DNA from: Limnomonas spitsbergensis
Taxonomy: Eukaryota > Chlorophyta > Chlorophyceae > Chlamydomonadales
Reading direction: 5' to 3'
DNA: 64,000 nt
Assembly: GCA_037349105.1 (NCBI GenBank)
Contig: JAYJMM010000034.1
Span: forward strand, 3,410,001 to 3,474,000
Part shown: piece by piece, positions 5,749-62,867 of the stretch
How positions within the stretch are numbered: position 1 is the stretch's first letter
Layout: every line of letters starts with the position of its first letter
Notes under the pieces: generated by a model
Databases searched by the model: none
The model's input: only the letters and a program-made list of their open reading frames with translations
What the model was told of the DNA's origin: nothing
Position numbers and translations under genes: made by a program

Positions 5749-5987
5749 CTGTGAAACGTGCATCGGACAGGTTAATGCGAGGGATGAACTTAAAAGGGTT
5801 AAGGGATTATAGTTGAGGGTTCAGGCTGACAGGAGAAAGGGGGGTAGGGTATTGGGGATTTAGGGCATGCCCCGTACAGCGTGATTGGAAGTGATCAGTG
5901 GGAATGAAACTCGTGAATGGGTATCTCATTGTTGGATTCAGGTTATCAGGCTGTCTTCTTCAGCCTGTCGTTCATTTGGTGTTTAAG

Positions 5988-8022: not shown

Positions 8023-11000
8023 CTAAAAGTTCGACTTGCTGGCGTTGGCCTTGACCAGCCGCGACAGCAGCTCGCCCTTAGGCATTGCGCCCAGCTCCTG
8101 CCCGCCGAACAGCCGCACCGACAGCGTCTGCGCCTCCACCTCCTGCAGCCCCACCACGCAGGTGATGGGCGTCTTGGCCTTCTGCGAGTTGCGCATGAGC
8201 TTGGGGATCGAGGCGCCGCCTTGGACCTCGACTCGGACGCCGCTGCGCCGCATCTCCGCCGCAACCTCGTTGGCGTACGGCAACACGTCGTCGTTCACGA
8301 TCAGCAGGCGCACCTGTGACGAGGGGCACCAGCAAGGGTTTACAGTTTAGGGTTTGGGGTTAAGGGTTTGGGGTTAAGGGCTTAGGCCTCAGGCTTGAGG
8401 CTCAAGGTTGGTTGTTTACGATCCGCAGGTTCACGGTCTTTCAAGGAACTTTTTATGCTTTATTTCTCCGTCCAGGGAGGAGCACAATAGCCCAGGCCCC
8501 CCCCCCATCTTGCCAGTAGTGCAGGTCAATGAAGTCACACCTCTGGGCCCTGCTCAAAAAAGCTCGGCCGCGTGGGCGCCTAACTAATAGGGGCAGAAAA
8601 AAGAATAGGAAAAGGTAGGGAGTGCAGGTGGTGCACTGAGTGGCACTGGGCGTCTTGAGCCTAGACCTGTGTCAGCATGCCAGGGTCTAATTGATGATCC
8701 CATGGATCTAGTTGATGATCCCATGGATCCAGTTGATGATCCCATGGATCTAATTGATGATCCCATGAATCTTATTGACGACCCTCAATGGAAATAACCC
8801 AGTTGAGGATTGAATTGATCCTCAATGTAGATAACTTGAATCAGTATTGAATTGATCCTCAATCAAAGTAACCTAGATCCGGATCTCATTGATCGTCAAT
8901 GAAGATCAGGATTGAATTGATATTCAATGAAACTAACCCAGACAAGGATCCAATTCATCCTCAATGTAAAACTACCCAGATCAGGATTTACACAAGCCCC
9001 AGTGGTCCCTGGCGCACCCATATAAGCAGTGCCATGGCCTCCCCGACACCCACCTGCGCCGGAGCCAGCCACAGCAGCCACACCCTTCAAAAAACCCACT
9101 TGCAACATTGCAAGCCACAAGGGTGTCCCCCGTCCCCAAAACCCACCTGCACCGGAGCCAGCCACAGCGGGAACGCTCCGGCGTAGTTCTCAATCAGGAT
9201 GCCAAAGAAGCGCTCCAACGAGCCGAAAATGGCGCGATGGATCATGATCGGCCGCTGTTTGGTGTTCTGGGCGTCGATGTACTCCATGTCGAACCTGAGC
9301 CGGGTAGGGTTCACGGTTCCGGCGTGAGGGTTCAAGGTCAGCTAAGCGGGCCGAGGGGCCTGTTGCAACCCTTTGTCTGCTGCTCCAGCCACAGGCCATA
9401 TGCTGGTCAAGATTTATTTCATTCGGCTTGGGAGGCGGTAAAAAGCTGCACCATAGCTGGCATTGTAGCTTAACTGAAGCTGCACTACAGCTGCACTGTA
9501 GCTGGCATTGTAGCTGAACTGAAGCTGCACTACAGGTGCACTGTAGCTGGCATTGTAGCTGAACTGAAGCTGCACTACACCTGCACTGTAGCTGGCATTG
9601 TAGCTGAACTGAAGCTGCACTACAGCTGCACTGTAGCTGGCATTGTAGCTTAACTGAAGCTGCACTACAGCTGCACTGTAGCTGGCATTGTAGCTGAACT
9701 GAAGCTGCACTACACCTGCACTGTAGCTGGCATTGTAGCTGAACTGGAGCTGCACTACAGCTGCACTGTAGCTGGCATTGTAGCTGAACTGAAGCTGCAC
9801 TATATCTGCATTGTAGCTGGCATTGTAGCTGAACTGAAGCTGCACTACACCTGCACTGTAGCTGGCATTGTAGCTGAACTGAAGCTGCACTACACCTGCA
9901 CTGTAGCTGGCATTGTAGCTGAACTGGAGCTGCACTACAGCTGCACTGTAGCTGGCATTGTAGCTGAACTGAAGCTGCACTATATCTGCATTGTAGCTTA
10001 ACTGTAGCTGAACCGTCACCATGGCACATCAAAATAAGAAATGCCCCCCTGACCTCTCTGGGAGGTTGTAGTCCAGCTGAATGGTAGAGCACTGCCACTT
10101 GCGGCCAATGGCATCCTGGATCTTGATGTCGATCTTGGGGCCGTAAAAAGCGCCGCCGCCGGCATCCACGCCGTACTTCCAGCCCTTGCCTTCCAGCGCC
10201 TCCACTAGCGAGTCCTCGGCGACCTTCCAGAAGGCGTCGTCGCCTGAGGAGACAGCAACGAAAACTTTTGAATCCAAAGTAGGCGTATAGGGCGGTGAAA
10301 TGCTAAGCAAGACCGTTGGCACCAGGGAGGCCTCAACGACCTTTCATGAGAGGTCTATCAGTCTGATGAATAAGTAAAGGATACGCCCTGAGGCGTGGAT
10401 TGAGGAAGCCACCCGTTCGGCCGTAGCACTAGGTGAGCTACCATGCAGTCTATCAGTCTGACCTCAGTCTGACTTTGTACCAACAACCTCAGTCTGTCCA
10501 ACTTCATAGGCATCGTCGCCTGGGCGATGATTGCACACATGGTATATCGCGGTGACTTCACAGTGATGCCCTGGATACGCGTATTTCAGCCTGTAAAAAC
10601 ATTGCATATTCAGAAATGGGAGCGCCGTCTTGGTCTCCTGTGGCCCAGGGGTGGCTGCATGGAAATCCACAAAGGTGGCATTGCCTGCATTACAGATACT
10701 GGACACCGTTTTGTCACCTCCTCCCCCTCTCCAGCCCCCCACTCCCTTTCCCTCTCGCCTTTCCCAGCCAGCCAGCGACATGGTATCAAAAACCGGCTGA
10801 ACCTGTGCCGTATTGTACTTCTATGGTATCACAATCTGGATTGACCTGAGCCGTATATATTGAATCTCCTGATTGTACCATGCCGTATCCAGTGACTTTT
10901 TTAGTGATATCCGCAATTAATTGTTGGGTACTGAATTATTCAGATTGAGCGCCGCAGGCGCGAAAAATCTCGATTCTCGGCTGTTTTCGCTCGTATTCGG

Positions 11001-14000
11001 TGCATTTCAGGGTATTTTCGGTACTGAGCGAGTTCGTTGATCTCAAGACCAATAATTGTTTGATACCGAATTTCGGTACGAGTCGTACCCGGTACCAACT
11101 AAAAAAATCACTGGCCGTATCCAGCTTTCATGGTCAGCCCCTGCAGCCCAGGACCCACCTACAGACTTCTCTGGCCGTGTCGACAGGTTGATCTCGTACT
11201 TGCTGAAACCAAAGGTGGACAGCACCTCCTCCACCAGATCCAGCACGCCTCGGATCTCGCCTGACACCTGGACAAGCCGTCCACACCGTGAAATGCCTTT
11301 TCAGGGTTTCTGGCTATATTTCACAGGGTTCTCAGCTACACTTGTCAGGATTTCAGCTACAGTTCAGCCACATCGTGGCCTTCTGGTGCATCAATTCCTG
11401 CAGCCTGGCCCTAGCCAACTGCAAGCCTGTCGCAGGGTGGCCTAGCGGTGGCCACCCAGCGACCTCCACCCCCAAATCTTCTGATGCCCACTAAAGCACA
11501 CGCGGGTGTCTTACAAATGATTAACATGACGGCTCAAAGCAACAGCAGCTTAACCTGGGTGCTTGCCACTAGTGCAGCACCCAGGTGCCAGGGGACCAGA
11601 AACAGGCCAGAAGATCCGACAAAGATCAACAACAAATGCACCCACACATGGTTTGAACAATACACACCCACACACATCATACCGCCCCACCCACCTGATC
11701 CGGCAGGCAGAACACATGCGCATCATCTTGAGTAAAGCCACGCACTCGGAAGAGGCCGTGCATGGTGCCGGACCGCTCATACCTGCACACACACACACAC
11801 ACACATACAGATACTCAGATACACAAGCTGTCAGTCAATAAACAGCCCCGGATACAATCTTGTGAAAACATTCACCAACATTTGGAATGCATCCCCCCAA
11901 ACACACACAAGTTGTGGGTAAAGATACGGTCTCAGACAAAGATGTGAAAGCATGTGCACAACAAAAGAGAGATTATCCTACAATTAAAATCCATCCCATA
12001 TAGACCCGGCACGTGGTAAAGCATTTCACTGGATGCAGAGGCTCCGGCCAATTTCAGCCTGTCCCCCCCTCCCCGCAACCTTCCCTTTTCCACAGCCCTG
12101 TCCACCACTCACCTTCCCTCGCACCACTCAACTATACAGAGTCCCCCACCGCCCACCCTCCCTCGCACCACTCACATATACATTGTCCCTGTCCACCACT
12201 CACCCTCCCTTGCACCACCCACCTACACACAGCCCTGTCCACCACGCACCCTCCCTCGCACCACTCACATATACAGAGTCCCCCACCACACACCCTCCCT
12301 CACACCACTCACATTTACACAGTCCCTGTCCACCACTCACCCTCCCTCACACCACTCACCTATACACAGTCCATGTCCACCACTCACCCTCCCTCACACC
12401 ACTCACCTATACAGAGTCCCCTACCACCCACCCTCCCTTGCACCACTCACATATACAGAGTCCCCCCACCACCCACCTTCCCTTGCACCACTCACATATA
12501 CAGAGCCCCCACCACTCACCCTCCCTTGCACCACTCACCTATACAGAGTCCCCCACCACCCACCCTCCCTTGCACCACTCATCTATACACAGTCCATGTC
12601 CACCACTCACCCTCCCTCGCACCACTCACCTATACAGAGTCCCCCACCACCCACCCTCCCTTGCACCACTCACCTATACAGAGTCCCCCACCACCCACCC
12701 TCCCTCGCACCACTCACCTATACAGAGTCCCCCACCACCCACATTCCCTTGCACCACTCACTTATACAGAGTCCCCCACCACCCACCTTCCCTTGCACCA
12801 CTCACATATACAGAGTCCCCCACCACCCACCTTCCCTTGCACCACTCACATATACAGATCCCCCACCACTCACCCTCCCTTGCACCACTCACCTATACAG
12901 AGTCCCCCACCACCCACCTTCCCTTGCACCACTCACCTATACAGAGTCCCCCACCACCCACCTTCCCTTGCACCACGCACCTATACAGAGTCCCCCACCA
13001 CCCACCTTCCCTTGCACCACGCACCTATACAGAGTCCCCCACCACCCACCTTCCCTTGCACCACGCACCTATACAGATCCCCCACCACTCACCCTCCCTT
13101 GCACCACTCATATATACACAGTTCATGTCCACCACTCACCCTCCCTCGCACCACTCACATATACACAGCCCTTTCCACCACTCACCCCCCCTCCCACCAC
13201 TCACATATGTACACCCATGCCAACCACTCACCCTCCCTCCCACCATGCACCTATACACAGCCCTGTTCACCACACACCCTCCCTCACACCACTCACCTAT
13301 ACAGAGTCCCCCACCACCCACCATCCCTTGCACCACCCACCTACACACAGCCCTGGCCACCACGCACCCACCCTCGCACCACTCACCTACACACAGCCCT
13401 GTCCACCACTCACCCTCCCTCACACCACTCACCTATACACCGTCCCTAGCTCCGCCAACCGCACAGGCAGATCCCGGTAGCTGTGGTACCCATTCTTGTA
13501 GACCGCAACGTGGAATGGGCAGTTCATGGGTTTAAGCTGGTACTCCTCGTCCTCCACCTGGTTAATTAGTGTTTAGGGTAGAGGTTAAGGGACAGAGACC
13601 TTAACCCAATCATCCCCTGAGTGTTACCCAACCCTAACCTAATTCTGGTTGCCAGTGTAAATATTGTACATGGTTCATAAGGAACCTGGGCATTAAACAT
13701 GATATGAAACCCTGTGAGGACCCCAGCCCTCCCCCCCACCCTCATCCTGTTGTACATTCTCAGGGTTTGTAGAAACTTAACAGCTAAAATCCTTTCACAT
13801 CCCTCCCCTAACCTTCATCTGGGCACTCATATTTTGGGTCGAGTGGGGGAAGACCCATAACCCTACAACCTTATCCCCTCACGTCCACTCACCTTCATCT
13901 GGTCGTACATGTTCTCCTTATAGAAATCGAAATGTCCGCTCGTCTTCCACAGGTCCAGCTTGGCAATGTGCGGCGAGTAGACGAGGTTGTACCCTCGCTG

Positions 14001-17000
14001 TGGGGGCAGGGCAGGGCAGGGCAGGGGCAGGCGTTGGCAATTCGGGCGTCCGCAGGCAGGGCAGGGGCAGGCCCCAGGTGCTTCACACCTCGTTCACACA
14101 GTACTTCACACATACCTTCACACCTGCTTCACACAGTGCTTCGCACCTGCTTCACACCTGCTTCACACCTGCTTCACACAGTGAATCGCACCTTCATACA
14201 GTGATTCACACCTGCTGCACACCTGCTTCACACAGTGATTCACACCTTCACACAGTGCTTCACACCTGCTTCACACCAGATGCGCACAGTGCTTCACACC
14301 TGCTTCACACAGTGCTTTGCATCGTCACACATTGCTTCACACCTTTACACCTGCTTCACACAGTGCTTCACACCTGCTTCACACAGTGCTTCACACCTGC
14401 CTCACACCAGCTCTACATGATGCTCCACACCTGCTTAACTCCCAACCTCCATTTTCGTGGCTCAGCTACAGTTCAGCCACACTTCAGCTACCTCCTGGCG
14501 CGGCCCCACAACCTCATGAAGTCCCACACGTGTCACAAATGAAGAAAGCGTGGGCTTGTTACCTGCAGGTGAAGATCCTTCCAGAAGCTCTCGATCAAGT
14601 GTCGCACCATGGCGCCGTTGGGATGCCAGAACACCAGACCACCACCTGAACACCACAGGGGGGGGGGCACGGCAGGAGCAGGGAGGGGGGCATATAAGCT
14701 ATGAAAAGTGGTTCATACCTTTTCTTAGCTTCAACGAAAGAAAGCCGGTATATCAGGCATGGGCGGGTAGATGAAATCCGATTTTAGGGCGTGCCATACT
14801 GCTGTTGGTGGGCAGCCAAACAGGCCACTGCAGGCCGAAGAGGGCCATGCTGCGACCAGCTGACAGTCGGTAACTGAGGCAGCAGGGCATGCTGCGCCAG
14901 GTCCACCAAAGCCTCCACTCCTTAAACTCCACACCCTCCACAGTCCCTAGACTTCACACCCCCTTGCCTCCACACCTGCACTGTCCTGTATGCTGAACAT
15001 GCCCCCACTGCCTCCACACTCCCTAGACTCCAACTCCCTGGACTCCACACCCCTTCGCCTCCACACCTGCGCTGTCCTGTATGCTGAACATGCCCCCACA
15101 GCCTCCACACTCCCTGGACTCCACACCCCTTCGCCTCCACACCAGCGCTGTCCTGTATGCTGAACATGCCCCCACTGCCTCCACACTCCCTGGACTCCAC
15201 ACCCCTTCGCCTCCACACCTGCGCTGTCCTGTATGCTGAACATGCCCCCACTGCCTCCACACTCCCTAGACTCCAACTCCCTAGACTCCACACCCCCTTG
15301 CCTCCACACCTGCGCTGTCCTGTATGCTGAACATGCTCCCACTGCCTACACACTCCCTGGGCTCCACCCCCCCTGGCCTCCACAACTGCGCTGTCCTGTG
15401 TGCTTAAACGGCCCCCACACCTTCCACACTCATTTTACCCCACACCCTCCACACTCCCTAGACTCCACACCCCCTTGCCTCCACACCTGCGCTGTCCTGT
15501 ATGCTGAACAGGTCCAGCTCCTGGCCCAGCTTTCGGTGGTCACGTCTCGCCGCCTCCACCTTCAGGTTATGATACGCGTCCAGCTGCTCCTTACTCTCCC
15601 ACGCAGTGCCATGGATGCGCTGGAGCATGGCATTGTTCTCATCGCCACGCCAGTAGGCACCTGGGAGGGGGGGGTAGAGTAACAAACGGGAATGAAGGTG
15701 AAGGGTTGAGGGCTGAGGTGGTTGTGAAGCATAGCATTAATCTCGTCACCACGCCAGTAGGCACCTGGGGGGTAAGAGTAACAAACGGGAATGAAGGTGA
15801 AGAGTTGAGGGCTGAGGTGGTTGTGAAGCATAGCATTAATCTCATCACCACGCTAGTAGGCACCTGGGGGGTAAGAGTAACGAACGGGAATGAAGGTGAA
15901 GGGTTGAGGGCTGACGTGGTTGTGGAGCATAGCATTAATCTCATCACCACGCTAGTAGGCACCTGGGGGGTAAGAGTAACGAACGGGAATGAAGGTGAAG
16001 AGTTGAGGGCTGAGGTGGTTGTGAAGCATGGCATTAATCTCATCACCACGCTAGTAGGCACCTGGGGGGTAAGAGTAACGAACGGGAATGAAGGTGAAGG
16101 GTTGAGGGCTGACGTGGTTGTGAAGCATAGCATTGTTCTCATCACCACGCTAGTAGGCACCTGGGGGGTAAGAGTAACGAACGGGAATGAAGGTGAAGAG
16201 TTGAGGGCTGAGGTGGTTGTGAAGCATAGCATTAATCTCATCACCACGCTAGTAGGCACCTGGGGGGTAAGAGTAACGAACGGGAATGAAGGTGAAGGGT
16301 TGAGGGCTGACGTGGTTGTGAAGCATAGCATTGTTCTCATCACCACGCTAGTAGGCACCTGGGGGGTAAGAGTAACGAACGGGAATGAAGGTGAAGAGTT
16401 GAGGGCTGAGGTGGTTGTGAAGCATAGCATTAATCTCATCACCACGCTAGTAGGCACCTGGGGGGTAAGAGTAACGAACGGGAATGAAGGTGAAGGGTTG
16501 AGGGCTGACGTGGTTGTGAAGCATAGCATTGTTCTCATCACCACGCTAGTAGGCACCTGGGGGGTAAGAGTAACGAACGGGAATGAAGGTGAAGGGTTGA
16601 GGGCTGACGTGGTTGTGGAGCATAGCATTGTTCTCATCACCACGCTAGTAGGCACCTGAGGGGTAAGGTTAAGGATGAAGCCCTTAGTGGACCCCAGTAA
16701 TCTTTTGGTCACTACGCCGGTCGTTAACAGGTGCAAACACGAGGGTTTAGGGTTTAGAGCTGTAGAGGGGTGAAAGAATGAAGGAGGGTTGCGAGCAGAA
16801 GATGGGGGAGGGGCAGGGAAGAACAAGAGCCCTACAGCCACTGTCTCCAACAAGCAAGCAAATCCAACCTCAGCGCACAAAGAAGCTATTCAATTCCCTT
16901 TCAACCTGTTAAGCACCCAGCCAACACGGCAAGCTCGCCGGCCGCGCCATCATCTTGCACGCTTCTAGGAGTGGGGGGCATTGTTGATGCAGGGCGGCAG

Positions 17001-20000
17001 TGTGGGAGGAGGAGGAGGGAGGAGGGAGAGGGACAAGGGGTTGCATGCCAGCCATCTGTCTTACACCCTCAAACCTGTAACCTGAAACATGTTTCTCTCA
17101 CGTCCTGAACCCTGAACCCTTAATCATTTTCCGTCTCTCCCGCCTATACCCTGAAACCCATACCATGTTCGCTCCCTTCCGTCCGTCCTACCATGTTCGC
17201 CCTACCATGTTCACTCCCTTCCGTCCGAAACCCTAAACACCTTGGACTTACACAATTATCTCACGCCCTTGACCTTTTTCGCCCCATATTACGGCACACT
17301 GCTTAGCTTCTGTCAGTGATTGGGCATGAGATGCTCCTCCCATGACTACGCCCAGTCTCTCACCTGCCACGGTCTCCAGGTCAAAGGCGTCCGGGCTGAT
17401 GTCGCCAGTGCGCTCAACGTGGGGGCCTGCGTTCAAAAAAAAACCAGTGCTGATCAAGGTTCCCCCTTCTACACAATCTACATAGAAGGCGGATCAGGGT
17501 CCCCCTTCTACACAATCTACATAGAAGGCGGATCAAGGTCCCCCTGTCTACATAAATGTGGATCAAGGTCCCCCTGTCTACATAAATGTGGATCAAGGTC
17601 CCCCTGTCTACATAAATGTGGATCAAGGTCCCCCTGTCTACATAAATGTGGATCAAGGTCCCCCTGTCTACATAAATGTGGATCAAGGTCCCCCTGTCTA
17701 CATAAATGTGGATCAAGGTCCCCCTGTCTACATTAATGTGGATCAAGGTCCCCCTGCCTACATAAATGTGGATCAAGGTCCCCCTGTCTACATAAATGTG
17801 GATCAAGGACCTCCCTTTAAAGATCAAATAACGGTTTCAGTGAGGCCTGATGTGGTCTGAATATTTAAATACCTGCACAGCAACTGTTGAACAGCAACCA
17901 TGAGCCGCTTCAAGAGGTTCGGTAGCAGGTCTCTCACTAGTTTTAGTCCTACAAAGGAGACGAAGCATGTCGACTCAAAGTGCAGCACACATCCGACCAC
18001 TCACCTGAACACATACCCCACCTCCCCACATATCCCACCTCCGCACAGATCCCACCCCTCACCTGCACACATGTCCCACCACGCACCTGCACGCATACCC
18101 CACCTCCGCACATATCCCACCTCCGCACAGATCCCACCCCTCACCTGCACGCATACCCCACCACTCACCTGCACGCATACCCCACCTCCACACATATCCC
18201 ACCTCCGCACAGATCCCACCCCTCACCTGCACGCATACCCCACCACTCACCTGCACGCATACCCCACCTCCACACATATCCCACCTCCACACAGATCCCA
18301 CCCCTCACCTGCACGCATACCCCACCTCCGCACATATCCCACCTCCGCACAGATCCCACCCCTCACCTGCACGCATACCCCACCTCCGCACATATCCCAC
18401 CTCCGCACAGATCCCACCCCTCACCTGCACGCATACCCCACCACTCACCTGCACGCATACCCCACCTCCGCACAGATCCCACCTCCACACAGATCCCACC
18501 CCTCACCTGCACGCATACCCCACCACTCACCTGCACGCATACCCCACCTCCGCACATATCCCACCTCCACACAGATCCCACCCCTCACCTGCACACATAT
18601 CCCACCACTCACCTGCACGCATACCCCACCTCCACACATATCCCACCTCCACACAAATCCCACCCCTCACCTGCACACATGTCCCACCACTCACCTGCAC
18701 GCATACCCCACCTCCGCACATATCCCACCTCCGCACAGATCCCACCCCTCACCTGCACGCATACCCCACCACTCACCTGCACGCATACCCCACCTCCACA
18801 CATATCCCACCTCCGCACAGATCCCACCCCTCACCTGCACGCATACCCCACCACTCACCTGCACGAATACCCCACCTCCACACATATCCCACCTCCCCAC
18901 ATATCCCACCTCCACACATGTCCACCCCTCACCTGCACGCATGTCCCACCACGCACCTGCACGCATACCCCACCTCCGCACATATCCCACCTCCGCACAG
19001 ATCCCACCCCTCACCTGCACGCATACCCCACCACTCACCTGCACGCATACCCCACCTCCACACATACCCCACCTCCACACATATCCCACCTCCCCACATA
19101 TCCCACCTCCACACATGTCCACCCCTCACCTGCACACATGTCCCACCACGCACCTGCACGCATACCCCACCTCCGCACATATCCCACCTCCGCACAGATC
19201 CCACCCCTCACCTGCACGCATACCCCACCACTCACCTGCACGCATACCCCACCTCCACACATATCCCACCTCCGCACAGATCCCACCCCTCACCTGCACG
19301 CATACCCCACCTCCGCACATATCCCACCTCCGCACAGATCCCACCCCTCACCTGCACGCATACCCCACCACTCACCTGCACGCATACCCCACCTCCACAC
19401 ATATCCCACCTCCGCACAGATCCCACCCCTCACCTGCACGCATACCCCACCACTCACCTGCACGAATACCCCACCTCCACACATATCCCACCTCCCCACA
19501 TATCCCACCTCCACACATGTCCACCCCTCACCTGCACACATGTCCCACCACGCACCTGCACGCATACCCCACCTCCGCACATATCCCACTTCCGCACAGA
19601 TCCCACCCCTCACATGCACGCATACCCCACCACTCACCTGCACGCATACCCCACCTCCGCACAGATCCCACCTCCACACAGATCCCACCCCTCACCTGCA
19701 CACATGTCCCACCACTCACCTGCACGCATACCCCACCTCCACACATATCCCACCTCCACACAGATCCCACCCCTCACCTGCACGCATACCCCACCACTCA
19801 CCTGCACGAATACCCCACCTCCACACATGTCCCACCTCCGCACAGATCCCACCTCCACACAGATCCCACCTCCGCACAGATCCCACCCCTCACCTGCACG
19901 CATACCCCACCTCCGCACATATCCCACCTCCACACAGATCCCACCCCTCACCTGCACACATGTCCCACCACTCACCTGCACGCATGTCCCACCACTCCCC

Positions 20001-30040: not shown

Positions 30041-30110
30041 CATGACTCCTGCCCCCCCGCCTCCTGCCTCCCTGACTCCTCCCCGCCTGACACCTGCCTC
30101 CTGCCATCAG

Positions 30111-36212: not shown

Positions 36213-39200
36213 ATGCTGACCACCCTAGTGCGGAGCAGTGCCAGGACCTGCTGGGTCTCAGCTGGAGGATCCATCGCCCTGAACAGCAACAGCAAGTTGC
36301 CACCGCATACAGCCCTCAAGAGACTGCTCGCAAGCCGATTCAAGTCGGAGGATGCGGGGGCCACACAGCCGGAACCGAACCCAGCCCCCGGCCCTGCAAT
36401 AGCTGCCACTCGCAAGATCCTGATCCCTGTAGGGGACATCAAGGTATGAGTACAATGGTGTGCAGCAGGCCCTGCCCCAGGTCTGACAGATCCTCCCACA
36501 TGTGAAGTTTTACAGTCCAGCAGAGCATCACATTTGATGCATGGGTCATATGCCCGTAAACCGGTACATGCACTTGATACCCTATGTCAGCGAGTGAAAA
36601 ACAGTGACCCCCTGGGCAAGCAACTAACACACAACCACATACAACTGTCTGGTGTGATGTGTGCCATACCAACTTTGTCAGCTTTGTGTGGGACACAGTG
36701 GTTGCTGGAAGGTTTTATGGTTACCAGTGTTTATTTTTCCTGATTCAGCTTCAATGTTTCTTTTAGCGCGCTTCAGCTGCAATTTAGCAACATCAAGGCC
36801 TACGGCCGTGGGGCCCTGGGGCAGCAAGTCCTGCTGCTCAGGCCACCAGCCATAGGCCGGTCAAGATTTTGTACCCATTGGCCCTGTGGTGGCCGCCCGG
36901 CGGCCCCTGACGCTAAAAGAAAAACTGTAGCTGATTCAGCTACAGGTGAGCTGCACTCCAGCATCCGGCCGGCAGCCCTAATTGTAGCTCGCTATGCCGT
37001 TTGGGCCGCCGGCCGTAGGTCGTATTTTTTTTCTATGCTGCGATACGTTTCTTTCGCAACGAAACGGGGTTTTGGGGAGGTTGGGGACCGCAATGACACA
37101 TGGCTTTCAGGCGCTACCCCGGTCAGAATTGCCATAGTCTCGTGTTTAAATAATGAGAACAGTTGTTACTTGGGATCGGAGTGATGGTGCTCAAAATTCT
37201 GCAAAGAGGTTAGAGACCTATCCTTTCAAAGATTCTTACTTCGACAATGGCGAATAGCGGCGGAGTTATAGCTCGCGAGGTTGGTTCGAGGACCTTCTAG
37301 GTAGGTCAAGGTTTGGTCACAATCGGCTTAAAGAGACCGCTGGGCGGCCCGCTGACAGTGTCCTGGTAGCAGAAGAAAAAAAACTGACGGCTGCTCGCTT
37401 GAAGGGTTTGATACAGTTCAAAGCGGCGCCGCATACATCCATAAGTCACAACCCATTGCCAATTGCACAGGTCCAACATTTATTGTACCCGATGGGGCAA
37501 AATTGTAGCGCGACGCCTTAATAAATATTAATTATCTGTAAAATATTGTCAAATCTGGTACGATTATGAAAATTCGCTGCTGACACTCCGCACAGCATAG
37601 CGCGCAGAAATAGCGCGCATCCAGGTCCGCGCACCCTAATAATCAATAAATGTTGAGCAAATTCTACCGCGTTTTACGGTACAAACACCGGTGAACAAAA
37701 AATATGTTGGATTTTTGGGGCCAACGCCACATACCGTAGTATCAGTCAAAATTTGTTTTAGTCTGAGTTCGTTTTTTTCTTGAAACCATCTTTTGCCTCA
37801 TTCACGCTGTTCGTTTCATTGGTTCGTTTTTTTGATCGGCAGCCAACTTCTTTCCCGATCATTGATTCGATCTTGCTCTGGGGGGCGCATCTGGTGCCAA
37901 CACACGTATAGCCTTCGCCCTAGAGAATGACTCTGAAAAATACAGCTGTCTTTTCATGCTGGCAGCATTTTGATAGGAAGACAGCGTGTAAACGCTGCCT
38001 TTGAGAAGAACGGCGCTGCGCTCCCTGTTAGTGATGTTTTTAGGGTTTGGGTCGAAATATATTCGTTTTTTCGTTTTTTTTCTTCCGTTTCGGTTCTGTA
38101 GATTTGCTTTGCCTTCCCTCATAATTGAATTTGTTTAAGGTTCAGGGATCCATAAATGTACTACCCATTGTCGACGCCAGTTTTCAGTCGGAAATTAAGA
38201 GTTTTGGTCGATAATCTGCCCTGAGGGTGTTAGGCATTACAATACATCATATTTTGAGGGTACAAAGAATCATCAAAATCAACCATTCGTTTTCCTGAAA
38301 AACGATTTATAAAACGAATCTGGACTGACGCTACGGTACAAACCGTTGTCATACTTGAGGGGACCCACCATGCCTTATAGAACAACCAACTAAACCAACC
38401 AGGATGCCCAGGAGACCAACCGACATGCACTTTTCATTACCCACTGTCCCCCCTCAATCAATTCTCTGTACCCTGCAACTCTACAGGAGACCCACCATGC
38501 CCTGGACTGGGTGATGCGAAACATGGTGTGCCAAGGTAATAAATTATGTGCTGATTTCTTGCAGCTCGAGTGCCCCAGGAAGTACTGTTTGTTTGCAGTA
38601 CAATTCAGCTACACTTCAGCTACATCAAGATTTATGGCTGAGCCATAAACAAACCCTGCTGCTCGGGCCTCCGGCCGACGGTGGGTGCAGCAAACACCCA
38701 GATGCTTGGACCCCTGGCCTTTGGCTGGGTAGGGCCAGACGCAAACAGATCACAACTCAGCACTGAACGCCTAACCATGACTTAGCAGCAGCTTTCTGTT
38801 CACGACCCGCGTTTTTTTCCCCGGCTACGAGTTCACCTTTGGCAGGCAGCCCCGCAGCCGCCAAAGACCCGATTCAAACCAAACCTGGATCAGCCTACGG
38901 CTTGCGGCCCAAGCTTCAGGGGGCTGGTCGGAGTGTAGCTGACATGTGCTGAATCACGCAACAGTAAAAACTGATCACGACACATGGAGATAACTCCTGT
39001 TGATATGGTGCACGAGTTGTAGATGGCCTGATCAGGGCCACTAGTGATGTGAGCCCAGGAAAGGCCAGGGCCAAGCAAATATGCAGATGTCGGGAAACCG
39101 ATGACCGTGTTCTTCGTTTCTTAACACGAGCGCATGTCAAGGTGTTTCGGCTAAAATTCAGCTAAAATTCAGCGGCACTGAGGCTTGAGCCCAGGGCCTG

Positions 39201-42200
39201 ATGCACCAATCCCTGCCGCTTGGGCCGTTGGCCGCGGACCAAATGAAAACCCTGAGGCTCCTCAGTCCCGTCTGATCAGCTTAGACAGTGGCAGTCAGAG
39301 AAAGAGATGTCAGACATCTGGGCAGGGGTGTCTTCTCATTCCTTCAGAAGACTAGATTCAGACTATATTATTTACTGTGTTGGGTGCAAGCAGGCAGATG
39401 CGGCCTTTGCACTGTGGAACAGTAACGAGGGGAATTTTTGATGGAATTTAGGCGTGTTCGGGGGTGTCTGGTGCAGATTAACCAGAGGAGATTAACCTTT
39501 GGGTTGCTTGGGCCACCGGCAAAATGCTGGTCATGGTTTGGTCCCAATGTGCCCAGTGGTGGCTACCTGTCAGCCCCTCTCCGATGATGGCCAGGCAAAA
39601 ACTATAAACACATTGGAAAGCCAGCCGCAGCTGTCAACGGGTAACCCCCCTGAGGCATATCCCAACTTCCCAAGCGCACATGGTCTTGTCTTCAAGGGAC
39701 GCTATTGGAACGCGTTTCCGGAACTCAGTTTTCCCTTGGCTCTGTTGTCTGGGACGTGCTCAGCCTAGACCCCCCAAACCCTTTGTGGCCCTGTTCGTTG
39801 CAGGGGACGTGCTGAGCCTGGTCCGCTGCGTGAACTCTGATGGCGAGGCGGAGATTGAGAGGCTGCTTCCTGAAGATGCGACGGACAGGTGAGGTGCATC
39901 TGGAAGTGAAGTGCTCGCCAACAAATCAGGATTCAATAACCCGGTCAAATTTAGTTAATCATTTGGGGATTGATAACCGGTAGGAATCAGGTGAATAACC
40001 TGCTTATATAACCGACAAGAACCGCTTTTCTGATGTGAAGCTTTTGTGAAGTTTTTACATTTTATGAACGGGACAGGTGCACGCTAATGGGTACAAGCAC
40101 AAAATAAACTTGGGCAGTGAGCGGAATAACTGTGAAGCAAGGCAAGCAACCAACACACAAACGCAAGCAAGTGGCGTGGAAGTAAACCCCATAGCGCAGA
40201 AGATAAGCCCCAATCATAGAGCATGACGTGGATGCAAAAAATCAAAGTTGAGCACCGCCAATGAAAGGAGGCTATCCCAAATGTTGAGGAACTGATGGAC
40301 TGAATCTGATGAATCCCCACTGCCTGCTTCTCGAGATCTTTAGGAATGACACCCTTAACCCCGAACCCTGACTGATTCTGTAAATAGTATGTAACTGTCA
40401 GGGTTGCTCAGCCAAGCTTACTAGAACGCGCTTCAGCAACAATTCAGCTATCTTAGGCCAAGAAGGCCGGGTGCAGGGCGCCCTGCAACTTGGGCCACCA
40501 GTTGTGGCCGCCTGGCATCGCCTCCAATAGCTCGTTGTCTTTAAAGCAAGCCGCTCAGCGATTCCCTTTGTCGTTGGGTGATCCTGCATGCTTCCTCTTA
40601 GCTCATTGGTGGGGCAGAGATGTGGGCATTAAACAAACCTGCAGGGTATTACGATACGGCATGATGCGGCGCAATATGGCACAGGTTCAGCCGGATTGTA
40701 CTACCAAAGTGCCACGATACGGCATGATACTGCTCGATGTGGCACATGTTCAGCCGGGTTGTGCTCCTTGCAAACCTGTGTGTGGTGCATGTGCCCTTGC
40801 TGCTAAGCAAATTGCGGCTGACAGCGTCCGTTTCTCAATTGTCCCAATAATTATTTAATTAGATATCCCCAACTTGCCTCTCCCCAGCGCATCTGCTGCT
40901 ACGCAAGAGAGTAGACCAAGGTCCTCATGCACACTACACCCACCTGCCACCAGAGTTGCCACCCCTGCACATTGCGGCTGACAGCCTCGATTTCTCCATT
41001 GTCCCACTAATGGTTTTATTATATATCTAACTTGTGTCTCCCCAGCGCGTCTGCTGCTGGTGCCAAGGAGGCTTGGGAGTCAGGCATCGAGGCAGATTGG
41101 AAGGACAGCATGCGGAAGCTGTACACCAACAAGCTGCAGGAGGCCCAGGTGCGTACACACTTGTGGGAGTGTTGTGTGAACGCTCACTCACTCGTGTGAA
41201 TGTTGTGTGAACGCTCACAAGCTAAAGAGGGTCCATGTGCATGCACACTTGTGTGAGCGCAAGCAAGCTGTGGGACGCTGAAGATCGTGTGCGAGCAATG
41301 TGTGAGCGTCTACCAGCAACACCGTGTACAGCAGACCTTCCCCCCTGTTGCAGGTACCGTACCAGCTACATGTTGTACAACAGACCTCCCCACCCCCTGT
41401 GGCATGCACCATACCGGCTACACGTTGTACCGCACCAGCTACACGTTGTACAGCAACCCCCCCCCCGTTGCAGGTACCCCACCTTCTGTGGCATGTACCG
41501 CACCAGCTACACGTTGTACAGCAGGCCTCCTCCCCTGTTGCATGTACCGCACCAGCTACACGTTGTACAACATACCTCCTTTACCCCCCTTTTGCATGTA
41601 CCGCACCAGCTACACGTACAGCAGACCTCCCCCCCCCTGTTGCAGGTGCCGAACCAGATACTCATTTTACAGCAGACCTCCCCCCCTGTTGCAGGTACCG
41701 TACCAGCTACACATTGTACAGCAGACCTCCCCTCCTATTGCAGGTACCGTACCAGCGACACATTGTACAACTGACCTCCCCCATTGTTGCAGGTTCTTTA
41801 CCAGCTACACGCTGCCCCCCCCCCCATGCCTGTTGCCTGTACCGTACCAGCTACTCATCGTACAACGTACCTCCCCCCCTGCTGCAGATAACATACCAGC
41901 GACACATTGTACAACTGACCTCCCCCATTGTTGCAGGTTCTTTACCAGCTACACGCTGCCCCCCCCCCATGCCTGTTGCCTGTACCGTACCAGCTACTCA
42001 TCGTACAACGTACCTCCCCCCCTGCTGCAGATACCATACCAGCTACACGTTGTACAACAGACCTCTCGCGTGGCCAAGATCGGCGTGGGCGAAGCTCTGT
42101 GCCAACAAGCGGAGAGGCTGGATGCGGCAGCTGTGGTGAGAGACGGGAACAGAGCCCCATGTGATAGCGGGGTGATAGACGTGCCTTGCGCACACACTCC

Positions 42201-45200
42201 TGGCATGGCTATCAATAAGAAGTAGGCAGTGCATTGGATGGTGGTGAGAGCCGGGAACAGAGCCCTGGGTAGCACACAACGAATGAAGTGGTGCGGCATC
42301 CGTATGGAATTGATGCGCAGGTCCGGACTCTGCACAAAGGGGAACCACCCTGTTCAGGGCAAAGTAGCCGCTGTGCATTGTTCCTTGGTCGTGAATTCAA
42401 TGGAGCATAGGGTGCAGGTTTCAGGGGGTGTTGTCGGCTGCCTACCGCTGGCAGGGGACACACCGACCACTGGCGTGTGGACTCCTCTGGGGTTCAAGGA
42501 GTTTCCACCTGCCCACCAGGTGACGCTCAGGTGACACCCTGCCGCGTCAGGGCATCACAGGGTTGGACAAGATTCTTGTTTCCATTGGGAGTGCGATGGT
42601 CTGTAAAGAGGGACCTGATCTCCAAACACCGGCAGGTGGAGGTGGAGGCCACCCCGAAACAAGTAAAGGCCCAAATCAGACAACAAATGCTTCCTTGTCT
42701 TATCTCTGCTTTATATGGTTTTAACACCTCTGGGCTCTAAGTTAACGATCCTTTTAAACACAAATAGGATGTATGATATCCTGTCCTCCAGGTTTTATCC
42801 AGTTACTCCCGCGGCGGTCTGGGCGAGCTGCTTGTCGGGAGCGTGGCCAATTACCTCACCCACAACTGCACCAAGCCAGTAGTACTGCTCCACCATGGGC
42901 ATCTGGGGGAGATGGCCGCAGCCGCAGCAGTTGCAGTCTCAGCAGTAGCCACCAGACTCTCCGCTGCCACCAGGGCCGCGGGGCACCCGGTCGGGTCATC
43001 CGCAGAACCCGGTGCCGCCACGCGAGCGGAAGGACTGCCAGAAGCGGCAGGATGGAGTGCTGCTCCATCCGCTGCGGCCACCGCCGCCTCTGTCAACCGG
43101 AACCTCCTGTTGCCAGTGGACAACACGCTGGATGGGCTGGCTAGCTGCCGCTGGACGTTAGCCAACCTGTACCGGAAGGGTACGCGATGAGCTGTTAACG
43201 TACTAGGGGACCTTACGTCAGCTACACTTCAGCTACATCCTTGGCCACATTGACTCTGAGTCTCCTCCGGCTTTCACGCAGGAGACACGATTCATGTCGT
43301 GCACATCACGCCCTGCTCGGAAGAGCGCAAGGAGCAGTACATCATGGAGCTCGGCGTGGCATGGCTGAGTCAGATGGCGGCTCTGGAGGAGCTCAAGTGG
43401 ATAGAGGCGCAGGTGAGACATGTCACAATAGAAAGAAGCATCTTGCACTATTAGTAGGGATAGGCGACCTTAGATAAGTTTCCACCTTCAATAATATTAT
43501 GTCATAACATGTAATGTTATTTCGAAATTAATGTTAGCTCACAGAAGGTGCAGAAAAACTTTTATAAGGTACAGCCGCCGTCCTCAACGCCCAAGCGCTC
43601 AAGCGTCCTCTTTCTTGTTCTTTCTAGGCTTGATATGTAGTAATATAGGCCAATGCCGAGGGGCTATATTGACGATGCCATGCTCCAATTATGCGGTTCT
43701 CACATGACCATATTTTCCAAGACCTGAATCGGATCACGTGCATCTGGCATGGGGATCACAGTAACCCGGTACGGTCAAAAGGTATGGTACGGGTTCGGTA
43801 CGGTACGGACATAATGGGATGGGCTAGTAAGAAAATGGACGATACGGTTGTTCCAAACGATACGGTACGGTCAAACGGTACGGGATTTTTGCCAATACGG
43901 CCGTACTAGGTAACACTGATGGGGATTACGAATGCGTGATCAGCCCAGATCCAGCATATCGGGGGGCATGCATTAACGCGTGGGACAGGGGCGAGACCCA
44001 GAGATAGCCCTTACCTACTAGGCCCATAGGGTGCATGTGGGCTCAAGGGGACGGACCTAACTTGAAACATACACTCAGATGTTTCCTGACGCTTAGAGGT
44101 CATCGATTTCTTAACTTTGAATGCTTTGTTGTGCAATGGACTTTGAATGTTGTGTTGTGCACTCTTGATTCATTGATACCTTGTGGACAGTGAGATGGCT
44201 GTTCATGCTAGGCCCATGCGGCGCATGAGGGTGCATGGGGCGCATGGCGGGTGCGGACTGTACCAAGAACACACCTTTGGGGATTTTCTTACATTTGCAT
44301 GGCAAAGTTTTTTATTTCGAATGGCGTCTCGTGCGATGGATTGCACATCTTGGCATAACCCCATCCCACTAGGCTCAAGGGGCACATGGTGACGCAAGAA
44401 ACTGAGAAACGTGTGATTCAGACATTTTCGACATTTTGCTGGCCGTAGATTTGAGAAAGTTTATGACGACTCGTGGTATGGACTCCTTTAATTAGCAGCT
44501 ATCCATAGACATCTTCATATCTGACTTAAGCCACCCCCCTGTAAGGTATATAATATTATAAAGCTTATATTAGCTTATATAATGTCACATTATTTCTCAT
44601 TAGATTTCAAGTTCCTAGCAATATAATTGACTGCTTATAAAGTGGTAATCTGGGACATACAAAATGTATTCCCCTTCAGCTTTCGTGAAGTTTTCCATGA
44701 TGAAAATAACAATTTAGGTCAAAGGTCCTCATTCTGCCAGGGCACATGAAGCCAGACCAGGGTCCTTTTAGCGCCAGCCCCAGGCGGCAGCAAAACTGCA
44801 AAACAGAAAATCAATTTAGTTCGAAAGTCCTCATTCTGCCGGAGCACATGAAGCCAGACCAGGGTCCTTTAAGCGCCAGCCCCAGGCGGCAGCAAAACTG
44901 CAAAACAGAAAATCAATTTTGTTCGAAAGTCCTCATGCTGCCGGAGCACATGAAGCCAGACCAGGGTCCTTTTAGCGCCAGCCCCAGGCGGCAGCAAAGC
45001 TGCAAAACAGAAAATCAATTTTGTTCGAAAGTCCTCATGCTGCCGGAACACATGAAGCCAGACCAGGGTCCTTTTAGGGCCAGCCCGAGTCGGCAGCAAA
45101 GCTGCAAAACAAAAAATCAATTTAGTTTGAAGGTCCTCATGCTGCCGGAGCACATGAAGCCAGACCAGGGTCCTTTTAGCGCCAGCCCGAGGCAGCAGCA

Positions 45201-48200
45201 AAGCTGCAAAACAGAAAATCAATTTAGTTCGAAGGTCCTCATGCTGCCGGAGCACATGAAGCCAGACCAGGGTCCTTTTAGCGCCAGCCCGAGGCGGCAG
45301 CAAAGCTGCAAGAAAGAAACCCTGCGAGCGAGGCTTGTGTTATTCAAATGTTCCTGCGGGTATTGGGTCAATATACGCCATGTCTCGGTCTCGGTCAGGT
45401 CTGGGATAATCACCTCGGCCTGCGGCCTCGGTGATTATCCTCAGCCCTGACCTCGACCTCAGCATTATAAACCGCTAACCGATTTGGGCAGTCCATTACC
45501 CGTCACATAATATTATATGCCGATCCCTAAATATAAGACTACGGTATGTTAACCGCAATTATATAAACACCAAATCACAGTGGCTCAGTCAGGTGGCAGC
45601 TCTGGAGGACCTTAAGTGGAAAGAGGCACAGGTGGGACATGTCACCATAGAAACAAGTGAATAACCCCATTTTTATATACAAGTTGCTTTACCGCAAGCA
45701 TGCATGGACCTCGGCGTGGCATGGCTGAGACAAGTGGCAGCTGTGGAGGAGGACAAGTGGAAAGATGCGCAGGTGAGACATGTCACCCTGGGCTGGTATT
45801 TCTCATCAATCTCAAAGTCGCTGCGCCATATCACCCATGCGGTCTTGCCAGGGACGAGGCACTCCTTCGTCACGGGGAGGTTGCTGCTGGAGCTAGAAAT
45901 GGTCGGCTCAGACATTCTACTTCACAACAGCCCAGGTAAAGTCAGAGATGAAGGCTACGTCATCAATTTTGCCCTGAGGTACACAAAAGCAGTACATTTG
46001 TATCATTGACATAAGACCGCATGAAACAAGTTCTAGCAACCTTACCTCAGCAATATGAAGATTTTTACAGATAGGGCGTGAAATGTTATTGAAGTGTTTA
46101 CAACATCAGCTCCTGCAGTGATGCTGAACCACAGGAGGAATTTCACGTACGGAATGGGCGCATGGGTCAAAATTGGGGAACTGCCGAACTGGGATGTGCG
46201 CTTCAAAGCTTCTTCTATTTTCATGTTTGATTTAGACTCATAAACTGCATGCTGATGAACTCAGTCTCACCGTATGACTCGCCATCATACATGTGGTCAG
46301 CAGACTACTCTAGCAATGACGATGATGGCATACTGGTAGTCTGGTACTGGTAATGACGAGATAACGACCCAATGGCTATAGCAGTGGTCCGATGACTCAC
46401 ACCTGGGCGTGTCCGGGGCATTGTCAAGAATCTGAAAGCCTTTTATGAATGAAGTCTGGTGGTGGGCATCTGAAAGGCACCATGCACTGTTTTTTCTTTG
46501 TGCTTCAGCTACAATTCAGCTTTATCATGGCAAACGGCCAGCAGGGCCTGGTGCTGCAAGACCGGCTACTGTGGCCACAGTCTGGTCAAGGTGGCTGGTC
46601 GTTGGCCTGCCAAAGGACATCCGGTGCGTGCTAAAATAGGTCATGGCACTGCAGCTTTCTCATCTATAGTGGTTCCTGTGGTTTTAATTCATGCGGAATA
46701 GCAGATAGGGAGATGGATAAGAATTCTCTTTTAAAGCCCTGCACTCTGCATTTTTAGCAATGGGAGATTGATAAGAATTCTCTGTTAAAGCCCTGCACTC
46801 TGCATTTTTAGCAATGGGAGATCGATCAGAATTCTCTGTTAAAGCCCTGCACTCTGCATTTTTAGCAATGGGAGATCGATCAGAATTCTCTGTTAAAGCC
46901 CTGCACTCTGCATTTTTAGCAATGCCAGAGACATGCACTGAGCTCTGAAGCTGTGGGTGGGAGGCCAACCTGGCAATGATCACAGGTTCAGCTGGATTTT
47001 GAACCTCGACAGCATAACCTTCAACACGGCCCTTTGCAGCTCTGTGTCACATGCTGCCATGCATGGAATCGAACACATTAGGCACAGATAGATGGAGCCA
47101 GTGAAGTCAAGTTACAGCATTTATGCATCCACCTGCTCAGCTTTGTAGAGGTACTGAGCAGAGCAGGTTGGATGAAGTAAGAAATACAAGCAGAAGAGTC
47201 AAACTAATTCCTGTCCAAGAGGAATGCTGCTGCCTGGGACCCCCAGGTTACTACTGTCCTGGAAGTAAATCAACCGTTACCCTAGCCAGTAACTGGGGTC
47301 CAGATTCCCTGAAAACAAGTGCAACTCTAGCTGAGTAAAACATAAACACAGAAATACAAGATGGAAAGATAAATATATACGGCACACGCCAGGATCACGC
47401 CTGCCGTATTCGGTCTCGGCACGGCCTGAGGTGTGGATTAAGGAAGCCACCCGTTCGGCCGTAGCACCAGGTGAGCTACCTGGTGCGACATATCACAAAA
47501 CAAAGAACCACCTTTTCATACAAGATTCGATTTATCACAAGCATGTCCGCGGCTCCGCGCCAAATGACAGTGGGGGCCAGCGCATGGCCATTTGGGACTG
47601 AAATTTGGCTGGCCAATGGCCCTGTATCAAAGGCGTTGTGTGTCCCTGCTGCTTGCAGATGGGGGTATATGCGGACTTGCTGGGAGGCTCGGGGGCACAA
47701 CACACTTTCAAGGTGGTGGTTAACTTCACGCAGGTGGGCTGCAACGCGCAGTTTGGTTGTATATAGTTTTAGCTACGATTCTGCTACATCACACACTTTT
47801 GAAGTGGTGGTCAACTTCACGCAGGTGGGCTGCATCGCGCAGTTTGGTTGTATATAGTTTTAGCTACAATTCTGCTACATCACACACTTTTGAAGTGGTG
47901 GTCAACTTCACGCAGGTGGGCTGCATCGCGCAGTTTGGTTGTATATAGTTTTAGCTACGATTCTGCTAGATCACACACTTTTGAAGTGGTGGTCAACTTC
48001 ACGCAGGTGGGCTGCATCGCGCAGTTTGGTTGTATATAGTTTTAGCTACGATTCTGCTACATCACACACTTTTGAAGTGGTGGTCAACTTCACGCAGGTG
48101 GGCTGCATCGCGCAGTTTGGTTGTATATAGTTTTAGCTACGATTCTGCTACATCACACACTTTTGAAGTGGTGGTCAACTTCACGCAGGTGGGCTGCATC

Positions 48201-48901
48201 GCGCAGTTTGGTTGTATATAGTTTTAGCTACGATTCTGCTACATCACACACTTTTGAAGTGGTGGTCAACTCCACATAAGTGGCCTGCAGCGCAGTTTGG
48301 TTTTATATCGGTACAATTTAGCTACATTGCACTATGACGGATGTGGGGGTAAAATTCACACAGGTGGGCTGTAGCGCAGTTTGATTGTATAATGTTTCAG
48401 CTACAATTCAGCTATGCCGCACTTTCAGGGAGGTTCTTCTTCGGCCGAAGGCCTCGTGCATGGCCTACTGTGCTGCAGCCCAACTCCCGGCCCACCTCCC
48501 AGCCCGCATCATAGCCCACCTTCCGGCCCACCTTCCAGCCCACCTTTTGGCCGCAGAATGGTCCTGATTTCATCCCCAGCTGTGGGCTTGTCTTGGGGGG
48601 GGGGCGAGACACCGTTACTACTTTCTAGCCTCGATGCTGAAAAACAAACTTATAATAAACTCCTGAATAAAGTAATCAATAAAATGCAGTAACCTCTCCC
48701 GCGTGCCTCCCTGGCTATCAGGACCCGCACCCTGTCACCACGATCTGCCAGGACATTTGCACACTGGCCTCAAACCTGGACGCCTCAGCTGTGGTCTTGA
48801 CTGCCAAAGAACACGGCGTGCTGTCCGAGGTGGTGCTGGGCTCCGTAACCAACTCCGTGGCCCACCAGTGCGACCAGCCAGTCATCGTGTTGCGGTCATA
48901 G
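36213..48901 (+). CDS. Tandem universal stress protein (two USP domains), nine exons
   Basis: Exons: 36213-36443 (start uncertain), 38487-38535, 39804-39888, 41046-41148, 42031-42135, 42792-43179, 43282-43412, 47659-47733, 48722-48901. All introns are GT-AG and in phase, giving about 448 residues from the Met at 36213. The first about 65 residues are basic/Ser-rich and could target an organelle. USP domain 1 starts RKILIPVGDIK and continues ALDWVMRNM, DVLSLVRCVN, EALCQQAERLDAAAV, SRGGLGELLVGSVANYLTHN and PVVLLHH. It keeps the G-x2-G...GS nucleotide-binding type motif. An Ala/Gly-rich linker follows in exon 6. Domain 2 starts NRNLLLPVDNTLDG, has DTIHVVHITP and FKVVVNFTQ, and ends LGSVTNSVAHQCDQPVIVL; its glycine motif is weaker (EHGVLSEVVLGS). 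USPs bind ATP or act in stress responses; the role here is inferred. Five of its exons have junction copies in neighbouring introns. Confidence 0.88.
36768..36905. repeat. Copy of dispersed TTCAGCTACA repeat
   Basis: GCGCTTCAGCTGCAATTTAG, GGCCTACGGCCGTGGGGCC, GGGGCAGCAAGTCCTGCTGC, CAGGCCACCAGCCATAGGCC, GGTCAAGATTTTGTACCCAT and GGTGGCCGCCCGGCGGCCCC. It is the most complete copy and can serve as the reference. It lies in intron 1 of the USP gene. Confidence 0.65.
38362..38376 (+). repeat. Copy of the start of USP exon 2
   Basis: GGGGACCCACCATGCC at about 38360-38375 matches the exon start GAGACCCACCATGCCC at 38487. Short, so it could be chance alone, but it follows the pattern at the other junctions of this gene. 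Confidence 0.4.
38595..38730. repeat. Copy of dispersed TTCAGCTACA repeat
   Basis: ACAATTCAGCTACACTTCAG, CAAACCCTGCTGCTCGGGCC and TCCGGCCGACGG, then a diverged end. It lies in intron 2 of the USP gene. Further copies are at 39148-39245 and 39490-39590. Confidence 0.55.
39741..39775 (+). repeat. Copy of the start of USP exon 3
   Basis: TCTGGGACGTGCTCAGCCTA at about 39748 copies the exon start GGGACGTGCTGAGCCTGG at 39804, some 55 bp upstream. Confidence 0.6.
40425..40520. repeat. Copy of dispersed TTCAGCTACA repeat
   Basis: GCGCTTCAGCAACAATTCAG, GGTGCAGGGCGCCCTGCAA, CTTGGGCCACCAGTTGTGG and CCGCCTGG. It lies in intron 3 of the USP gene. Confidence 0.55.
40868..40915 (+). repeat. Copy of the 3' splice site of USP exon 4
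   Basis: AACTTGCCTCTCCCCAG followed by CGCATCTGCTGCTACGC at 40870-40905 copies the true junction CTTGTGTCTCCCCAG followed by CGCGTCTGCTGCTGG at 41031-41060. The intervening stretch (GCACATTGCGGCTGACAGC, TTCTCCATTGTCCCA) is also present twice, at 40808 and 40970, so the unit is about 160 bp. Confidence 0.8.
41335..42030 (+). repeat. About 48-bp repeat built from the 3' splice site of USP exon 5, about 15 copies
   Basis: The true junction is CCCCCTGCTGCAG followed by ATACCATACCAGCTACACGT + TGTACAACAGACCT. The array repeats this whole block: TGTTGCAG, GTACCGTACCAGCTACACGT, TGTACAGCAGACCTCC, C-run. About ten copies keep the AG at the junction. A second-order duplication repeats 41789-41880 at 41934-42028 (about 145 bp offset). 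Each unit is a potential acceptor with about 35 exon bases. Confidence 0.92.
43760..43915. repeat. Degenerate CGGTACGG repeat
   Basis: Runs of GGTACGG and GATACGG words; its end (ACGGGATTTTTGCCAATACG ... ACTAGGTAAC) resembles the text just right of the first minisatellite at 4308-4350 (ACGGGATTTGGGCCAAACCG ... ACTAGGTAAC), so it belongs to a dispersed family. Confidence 0.6.
44725..45310. repeat. 102-bp minisatellite, about 5.7 copies
   Basis: Units contain GTCCTCATGCTGCCGGAGCA, CATGAAGCCAGACCAGGGTC and CGGCAGCAAAACTGCAAAAC. 102 is a multiple of 3, so a 234-codon plus frame (34-residue period) and a 144-codon minus frame stay open. It lies in intron 7 of the USP gene. I do not count it as a gene, since no start context or family feature supports one. 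Confidence 0.93.
45345..45460. repeat. Imperfect inverted repeat
   Basis: GGGATAATCACC at about 45402-45413 and GGTGATTATCC at about 45430-45441 flank a CGGCCTGCGGCC loop; AGGTCTGGGATAATCACC and its counterpart ending CCTGACCT extend the arms. Confidence 0.6.
45580..45790 (+). repeat. Two decayed copies of USP exon 7's end and donor
   Basis: Copies at 45583-45640 (GTGGCTCAGTCAGGTGGCAG ... AGGCACAG then GTGGGACATGTCACC) and 45702-45790 (GACCTCGGCGTGGCATGGCT ... ATGCGCAG then GTGAGACATGTCACC). They match exon 43350-43412 and its donor GTGAGACATGTCACA. Both are about 2.2 kb downstream of the true exon in the same intron. Either could act as a decoy exon end. Confidence 0.82.
46495..46625. repeat. 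Copy of dispersed TTCAGCTACA repeat
   Basis: GTGCTTCAGCTACAATTCAG, GGGCCTGGTGCTGCAAGACC, GTGGCCACAGTCTGGTCAAG. It lies in intron 7 of the USP gene. Confidence 0.55.
46712..46930. repeat. 54-bp tandem repeat, 4 copies
   Basis: Units contain AATTCTCTGTTAAAGCCCTG, CACTCTGCATTTTTAGCAAT and GGGAGATCGATCAG. The minus-strand frame is open with an 18-residue period. It lies in USP intron 7. Confidence 0.9.
47734..48375 (+). repeat. 91-bp repeat built from USP exon 8's 5' splice site, 6-7 copies
   Basis: Exon 8 ends CACACTTTCAAGGTGGTGGT + TAACTTCACGCAG followed by GTGGGCTGCAACGCGCAG. Intronic units every 91 bp repeat CACACTTTTGAAGTGGTGGT + CAACTTCACGCAG followed by GTGGGCTGCATCGCGCAG, at about 47793, 47884, 47975, 48066 and 48157. 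A copy at 48248 has lost the AG-GT and a diverged one at 48352 keeps it. The unit also contains TTTTAGCTACGATTCTGCTA, related to the dispersed TTCAGCTACA repeat. Confidence 0.95.
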
Positions 48902-62862: not shown

Positions 62863-62867
62863 GGCAA

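Follow-up and report, generated by a model that had tools for sequence, protein, structure and literature searches.

Tandem copies of exon-intron junctions, probably minisatellites of the amphioxus 'mirage' type, in introns of the green alga Limnomonas spitsbergensis

We have found that introns in several genes of Limnomonas spitsbergensis carry arrays of copies of their own splice junctions. These arrays are very probably exon-intron boundary minisatellites of the amphioxus 'mirage' type, in which the border does not stop duplication and the exon-proximal splice site is presumably the one used. Mirage-type arrays are already known from some amphioxus genes; in the Limnomonas genes sampled they are common, and what is new here is a green alga as their host, together with their frequency. 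Such junction arrays go unmentioned in the genome paper's text on introns and tandem repeats (PMC11228838), and no description of them in green algae was found in the titles and abstract openings of the literature matches listed.

The published L. spitsbergensis assembly comprises 260.248 Mb in 124 contigs with a maximum of 10.736 Mb, was sequenced with PacBio (read L50 = 33 kb) and is accompanied by a statement of RNA-seq and IsoSeq data; phylogenetically, the alga groups with Chlamydomonas sp. UWO 241 (PMC11228838). The window referred to below is the whole stretch of 64,000 nt that was analysed (contig JAYJMM010000034.1, positions 3,410,001 to 3,474,000). Further gene families were searched for in the genome of 260,226,709 bases in 124 contigs.

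The threonyl-tRNA synthetase (ThrRS) gene occupies 8023..22559 on the minus strand, with 13 exons and 12 introns that were re-spliced to a stop-free frame of 2082 nt and 693 aa. Its product aligns with E. coli ThrRS (1qf6) over residues 101-688, and its closest match, at 80% identity, is from Chlamydomonas sp. UWO 241. Spliced alignment with algal ThrRS proteins reproduced all 12 introns with six of eight references (P0001, P0002, P0003, P0004, P0010 and P0027), while P0012 and P0015 each recovered 11 of the 12; P0012 split intron 12, P0015 split intron 3 by a piece within the array, and the remaining extra introns all lay in the gene's N-terminal part.

Donor-derived arrays of this gene (all on the minus strand) were found in intron 3 (18009..20103, up to 38 copies with an exon part), intron 5 (14936..15486, six copies spaced 76 or 91 bp, one of them identical to the junction across the aligned stretch) and intron 8 (12102..13432, 26 copies with an exon part at 44-46 bp spacing). 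Acceptor-derived copies occur in intron 2 (20264..20511, unit of about 111 bp) and in intron 4 (15661..16667), where a 99 bp unit that includes about 40 exon bases is present in 10 copies; by eye, one exon base is kept in the nearest copy only and is changed in the other nine of the ten. Intron 12 has a single donor duplication with 22 exon bases (9038..9146), and intron 7 a weak single donor copy with 10 exon bases (13772..13822, the low end being approximate). By summed coordinates, junction-derived arrays account for about 5.3 of the 12.5 kb of ThrRS intron. In the arrays of introns 6 and 11, inspected by eye only, a clear exon edge was not found. The intron 11 array (9518-10012, 45 bp unit) holds 11 of the 22 occurrences of TTCAGCTACA in the window, against a shuffled mean of 0.05. 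The other 11 are dispersed on one strand, at sites that include 5057, 11352, 21162, 21455, 36935, 38604, 43228, 46504 and 48396; TTCAGCTACA may mark the end of a dispersed element that gave rise to the intron 11 array.

On the plus strand, a universal stress protein (USP) gene (36213..48901) was re-spliced from nine exons to 448 aa. It matches Pfam Usp (PF00582) in two stretches at E 6.7e-29; none of the candidates scored was a homologue at E<=1e-10, nor was one found in PDB at 0.01, so the gene model rests on the Pfam match. Its clearest arrays are acceptor-derived in intron 4 (41311..42030, 13-14 copies that include as many as 35 exon bases, mostly 45-49 bp apart) and donor-derived in intron 8 (47734..48400, seven copies of a 91 bp unit). 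Intron 3 has an acceptor copy (40831..40903) 158 bp upstream of the acceptor, intron 2 a weak acceptor copy with 21 exon bases (39744..39773), and intron 5 a donor near-copy holding three exon bases only. Two displaced copies of a donor edge in intron 7 (45581..45786), with 51 and 70 exon bases aligned, lie about 2.2 kb (2219 nt) off the junction and are an exception to the one-period spacing described below. In these copies the end of exon 7 is followed by GT, and by eye the frame over the copied codons seems open; they are possible alternative or nascent exons.

Two further genes, whose models were read by eye, also carry junction copies. The trefoil/PAN gene has a donor copy (31354..31380, plus strand) downstream of the donor at 31302 and two acceptor copies (30953..31090, plus strand) upstream of the acceptor near 31151. 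In a partial PAN gene at about 4.4-5.8 kb, donor-derived copies (4416..4752, minus strand) are near-identical to the exon when nearest and decayed when farther away, likeness being greatest, by eye, in those closest to the exon. A Pfam search of the PAN-gene peptides identified one as PAN_1 and one as ricin-B below the cut-off, with two lacking a match. By eye, minus-strand genes at 4857-5800 and 24313-26290 form a similar pair that could serve to compare intron growth; no Pfam match was found for the tested peptides of the gene at 24313-26290. The sequence-only reading had claimed junction copies at a dozen or more junctions of these four genes, and near-copies with exon bases were found at a dozen or more of them. 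It had placed them within 8023..48901, a span that fits ThrRS and USP but leaves the partial PAN gene outside.

Other features of the window were recorded in passing. Its left end (1-4288) is filled by about 306 repeats of a 14 bp unit with 96% matches, which produce long repetitive open frames. An open frame at 62842-63222 resembles, by eye, a retroelement integrase. The strings GGGTTAAGGG and GGGTTTAGGG are scattered (6 vs 0.2 and 3 vs 0.35 expected from shuffling) at 5796, 8357, 8371, 16743, 20786, 30531, 30538, 40361 and 57311.

The association between junctions and their own introns was measured in ThrRS and USP. At 9 of 40 edges the own intron held a near-copy of the 30 outermost exon bases (score >=15); the intron across the exon did so at none of 36 edges, and mis-paired introns in none of 760 comparisons. 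Of the exon-interior 30-mers, 3 of 257 had intron copies. These counts bear out the claims that introns have been expanded by tandem copies of their own junctions and that donor copies lie downstream and acceptor copies upstream. The comparison that the sequence-only reading had proposed, with 40 exon plus 30 intron bases per junction, likewise separated own introns from mis-paired ones (12/40 vs 1/760 at score >=22); one junction in 40 matched its reversed own intron. Since mis-paired introns almost never match, the units are local, and an origin from a dispersed element was rejected. In all, 14 of the 40 ThrRS and USP junctions were flagged and 26 were not. Exon 24-mers with copies became rarer with distance from the edge: 9/40 at the edge, 5/40 ten bases in, 3/40 at 20, 1/37 at 30, 1/34 at 40 and at 50, and none from 60 on. 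Copy number per junction ran from 1 up to 38, in ThrRS intron 3, with 26 in ThrRS intron 8.

Recurrence elsewhere in the genome, which had been suggested, was found in two other families. For the kinesin motor family (PF00225), 139 exon matches were obtained and 63 adjacent exon pairs tallied in 49 clusters. From 32 clusters, taken whole or in part, 46 pairs were examined by a rule slightly different from that of the tally; five were excluded for in-frame stops and one failed, which left 40 introns, and the last nine stretches were chosen for stop-free pairs and short span. Junctions scoring >=22 numbered 16 of 80 in their own introns and 6 of 3120 in mis-paired ones, or 14 of 76 once the weakly modelled loci L051 and L052 were removed. 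Exon edges by themselves matched in 13/80 own and 16/3120 mis-paired cases, the latter probably because the exons are related, and 18/80 junctions matched by either measure; 16 of 982 exon-interior windows had intron copies. Copies were present in 15 of 40 introns and 11 of 29 loci. Introns with copies were longer, as the sequence-only reading had anticipated (median 910 nt, n=15, vs 498 nt in the others, n=25; one-sided p = 0.003). At locus L042 the edge FNNGKASCFAYGQT repeats every 59 bp downstream of the donor, and at L053 the edge HIPYRDSKLTRIL repeats every 82 bp upstream of the acceptor, both edges being read by eye. For the chaperonin family (PF00118), 39 of 72 matches were used, one of them outside the 11 stretches, whose choice favoured short span; nine of 22 pairs were excluded for stops, and in the remaining 13 introns 4 of 26 junctions matched, all four acceptors, against 0 of 1352 mis-paired. 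Two SerRS genes gave one match among 30 junctions, which was discounted as its donor is doubtful (score -0.1). The three families pooled, SerRS included, amount to 21 of 136 junctions.

All copies are direct: inverted ones were found at 0 of 150 pooled junctions (score >=22). In regular arrays the nearest copy lies one period off the real junction (for example 91,91,91; 59,59,59; 82,82,82); the larger arrays are evenly spaced, and some others are irregular. Direct orientation and even spacing in the larger arrays uphold the earlier proposal of repeated tandem duplication across the border. Differences between copies and exon fell at 66, 60 and 93 of about 296 columns at the first, second and third codon positions, a third-position excess that fits a constrained exon and would also arise were some copies coding. 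The GT and AG of copies are conserved like neighbouring bases, so the decoys look neither purged nor kept, and the decay of copies is neutral-looking.

A process directed at the junction itself was not supported. Were AG|GT junctions hot spots for tandem duplication, arrays should favour them, and about 8 of 15 arrays in ThrRS and USP do include the junction, which by our own estimate is above the expectation from unit and intron lengths; but the window was chosen because of its arrays, and by our reading of the repeat list roughly one array in two in these introns excludes the junction. In 38 introns of at least 700 nt, the share of edges under duplications (negative offsets being on the exon side) was 25/76 at 0, 26/76 at +60 and 34/76 at +300, and on the exon side 24/76 at -10, 26/76 at -20, 19/76 at -30, 11/76 at -45, 7/74 at -60, 1/63 at -90 and 0/48 at -120. 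Coverage thus stays at 24-26/76 throughout -20 to +60 nt and fades over the first 90 nt or so of exon, which argues that junctions are not targeted; in 23 introns of 300-700 nt the exon side was lower (5/46 at -10 vs 9/46 at 0). The profile pooled over 75 introns lacks a junction peak and runs slightly higher well inside the intron, and on this distance profile a junction-directed mechanism, which we regard as unlikely, was dropped. Random intron 70-mers from the window recur in their own intron in 270 of 615 cases, a larger share than the 12 of 40 junctions; taken literally, this is the result that the sequence-only reading had said would refute it. The exon border is no hot spot and, in long introns, no barrier either, and the arrays may be plain intron minisatellites that chance to reach the exon edge.

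It had also been held that any copy can serve in splicing, in which case decoys would often be used and give alternative, perhaps regulatory, mRNAs. Of the 228 copies that include 8 or more exon bases, an intact GT or AG is kept in 160. Scored with a matrix built from the pooled introns themselves, 113 of these 160 decoys, at 20 of 27 junctions, exceed the real site or fall short of it by no more than 0.5 bits. Yet 109 of the 160 would shift the frame, 127 would bring an in-frame stop and only 11 would do neither, so that 149 would break the reading frame (32 of the 160 come from doubtful models: SerRS 9, L051 20, L052 3). The splice dinucleotides bear no sign of retention, and RT-PCR in amphioxus suggests regular splicing (PMC3087553); frequent decoy use is accordingly very unlikely in our view. 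The exon-proximal copy is the choice that fits the protein, namely the donor at the 5' end of a donor array and the acceptor at the 3' end of an acceptor array, and judging from reading frames it is presumably the one used in the mRNA. The reverse history, with exon edges recruited from intronic minisatellites that were there before them, is scarcely plausible: copies and edges would look alike in either order, but the copied ThrRS edges fall within stretches aligned to E. coli ThrRS and encode old residues present in that orthologue, which makes the exon the source of the copies. The copied kinesin edges, moreover, are what we take to be the P-loop and the HIPYRDSKLT motif, both old. Hardly more credible is an artefact of assembly or gene models. 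The models are homology-based, with weak ones at L051 and L052 and a doubtful SerRS donor; against this stand the PacBio assembly, the recovery of all ThrRS introns with six of eight reference proteins, and mis-paired controls close to zero.

Boundary minisatellites of the mirage type remain the preferred reading, and the arrays are grouped with mirages because their unit spans the boundary and both donor and acceptor boundaries are duplicated. Amphioxus mirages have been described in Adh3 and in the globin genes BflGb6 and BflGb9; regular splicing is suggested by data on Adh3 and RT-PCR of the globins, and mirage lengths differ between haplotypes (PMC3087553). As in these, the Limnomonas repeat unit consists of an exon part, a splice signal and an intron part. 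By eye, ThrRS intron 4 and the partial PAN array hint at the turnover expected of tandem repeats, in which the copies at the ends are the least homogenised. The amphioxus cases comprise several named genes with RT-PCR and haplotype lengths, whereas the Limnomonas arrays are known from sequence, at 16/80 and 4/26 junctions, a frequency of which the text on mirages in PMC3087553 makes no mention. Intron gain by tandem duplication of an AGGT-containing exon segment (Rogers 1989 and Hellsten 2011, as cited in PMC4974935 and PMC2891723; in fission yeast, several 24 bp duplicates are spanned by introns) similarly yields splice-site copies. There a new intron arises inside an exon, whereas in Limnomonas an intron already present is lengthened by a unit that crosses its border. 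Minisatellites of the ordinary intronic kind, such as CeRep25B of C. elegans, are likewise tandem arrays within introns, some of them close to where splicing is decided, but the text consulted does not mention exon sequence in their unit (PMC4039745).

Under the mirage-type reading, short direct tandem duplications, mostly with spacings of about 45-170 bp, would arise and re-expand throughout introns, probably by slippage or unequal exchange, and minisatellite growth would pass the exon border unhindered. A duplication entirely within an exon would alter the protein and presumably be lost to purifying selection. One that straddles the border would survive because the exon-proximal splice site and the frame stay intact, provided that the spliceosome takes the copy adjoining the real exon; the other copies would then decay as intron. 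The one sign suggesting that change is ongoing is the identity of some copies with the real junction over the aligned stretch.

The wider proposal, that border-crossing duplication is a main driver of intron expansion in this lineage, that the spliceosome reliably takes the exon-proximal site and that some 15-20% of junctions genome-wide are involved, we hold to be nearly an even call, leaning slightly against. If true, the spliceosome would choose among sites of equal strength, up to dozens in a row, and occasional open-frame copies, such as those of USP intron 7, would offer material from which new exons or shifted borders could arise. Junction arrays are natural competition experiments between splice sites, and they make one mechanism of intron enlargement visible in another branch of the order.
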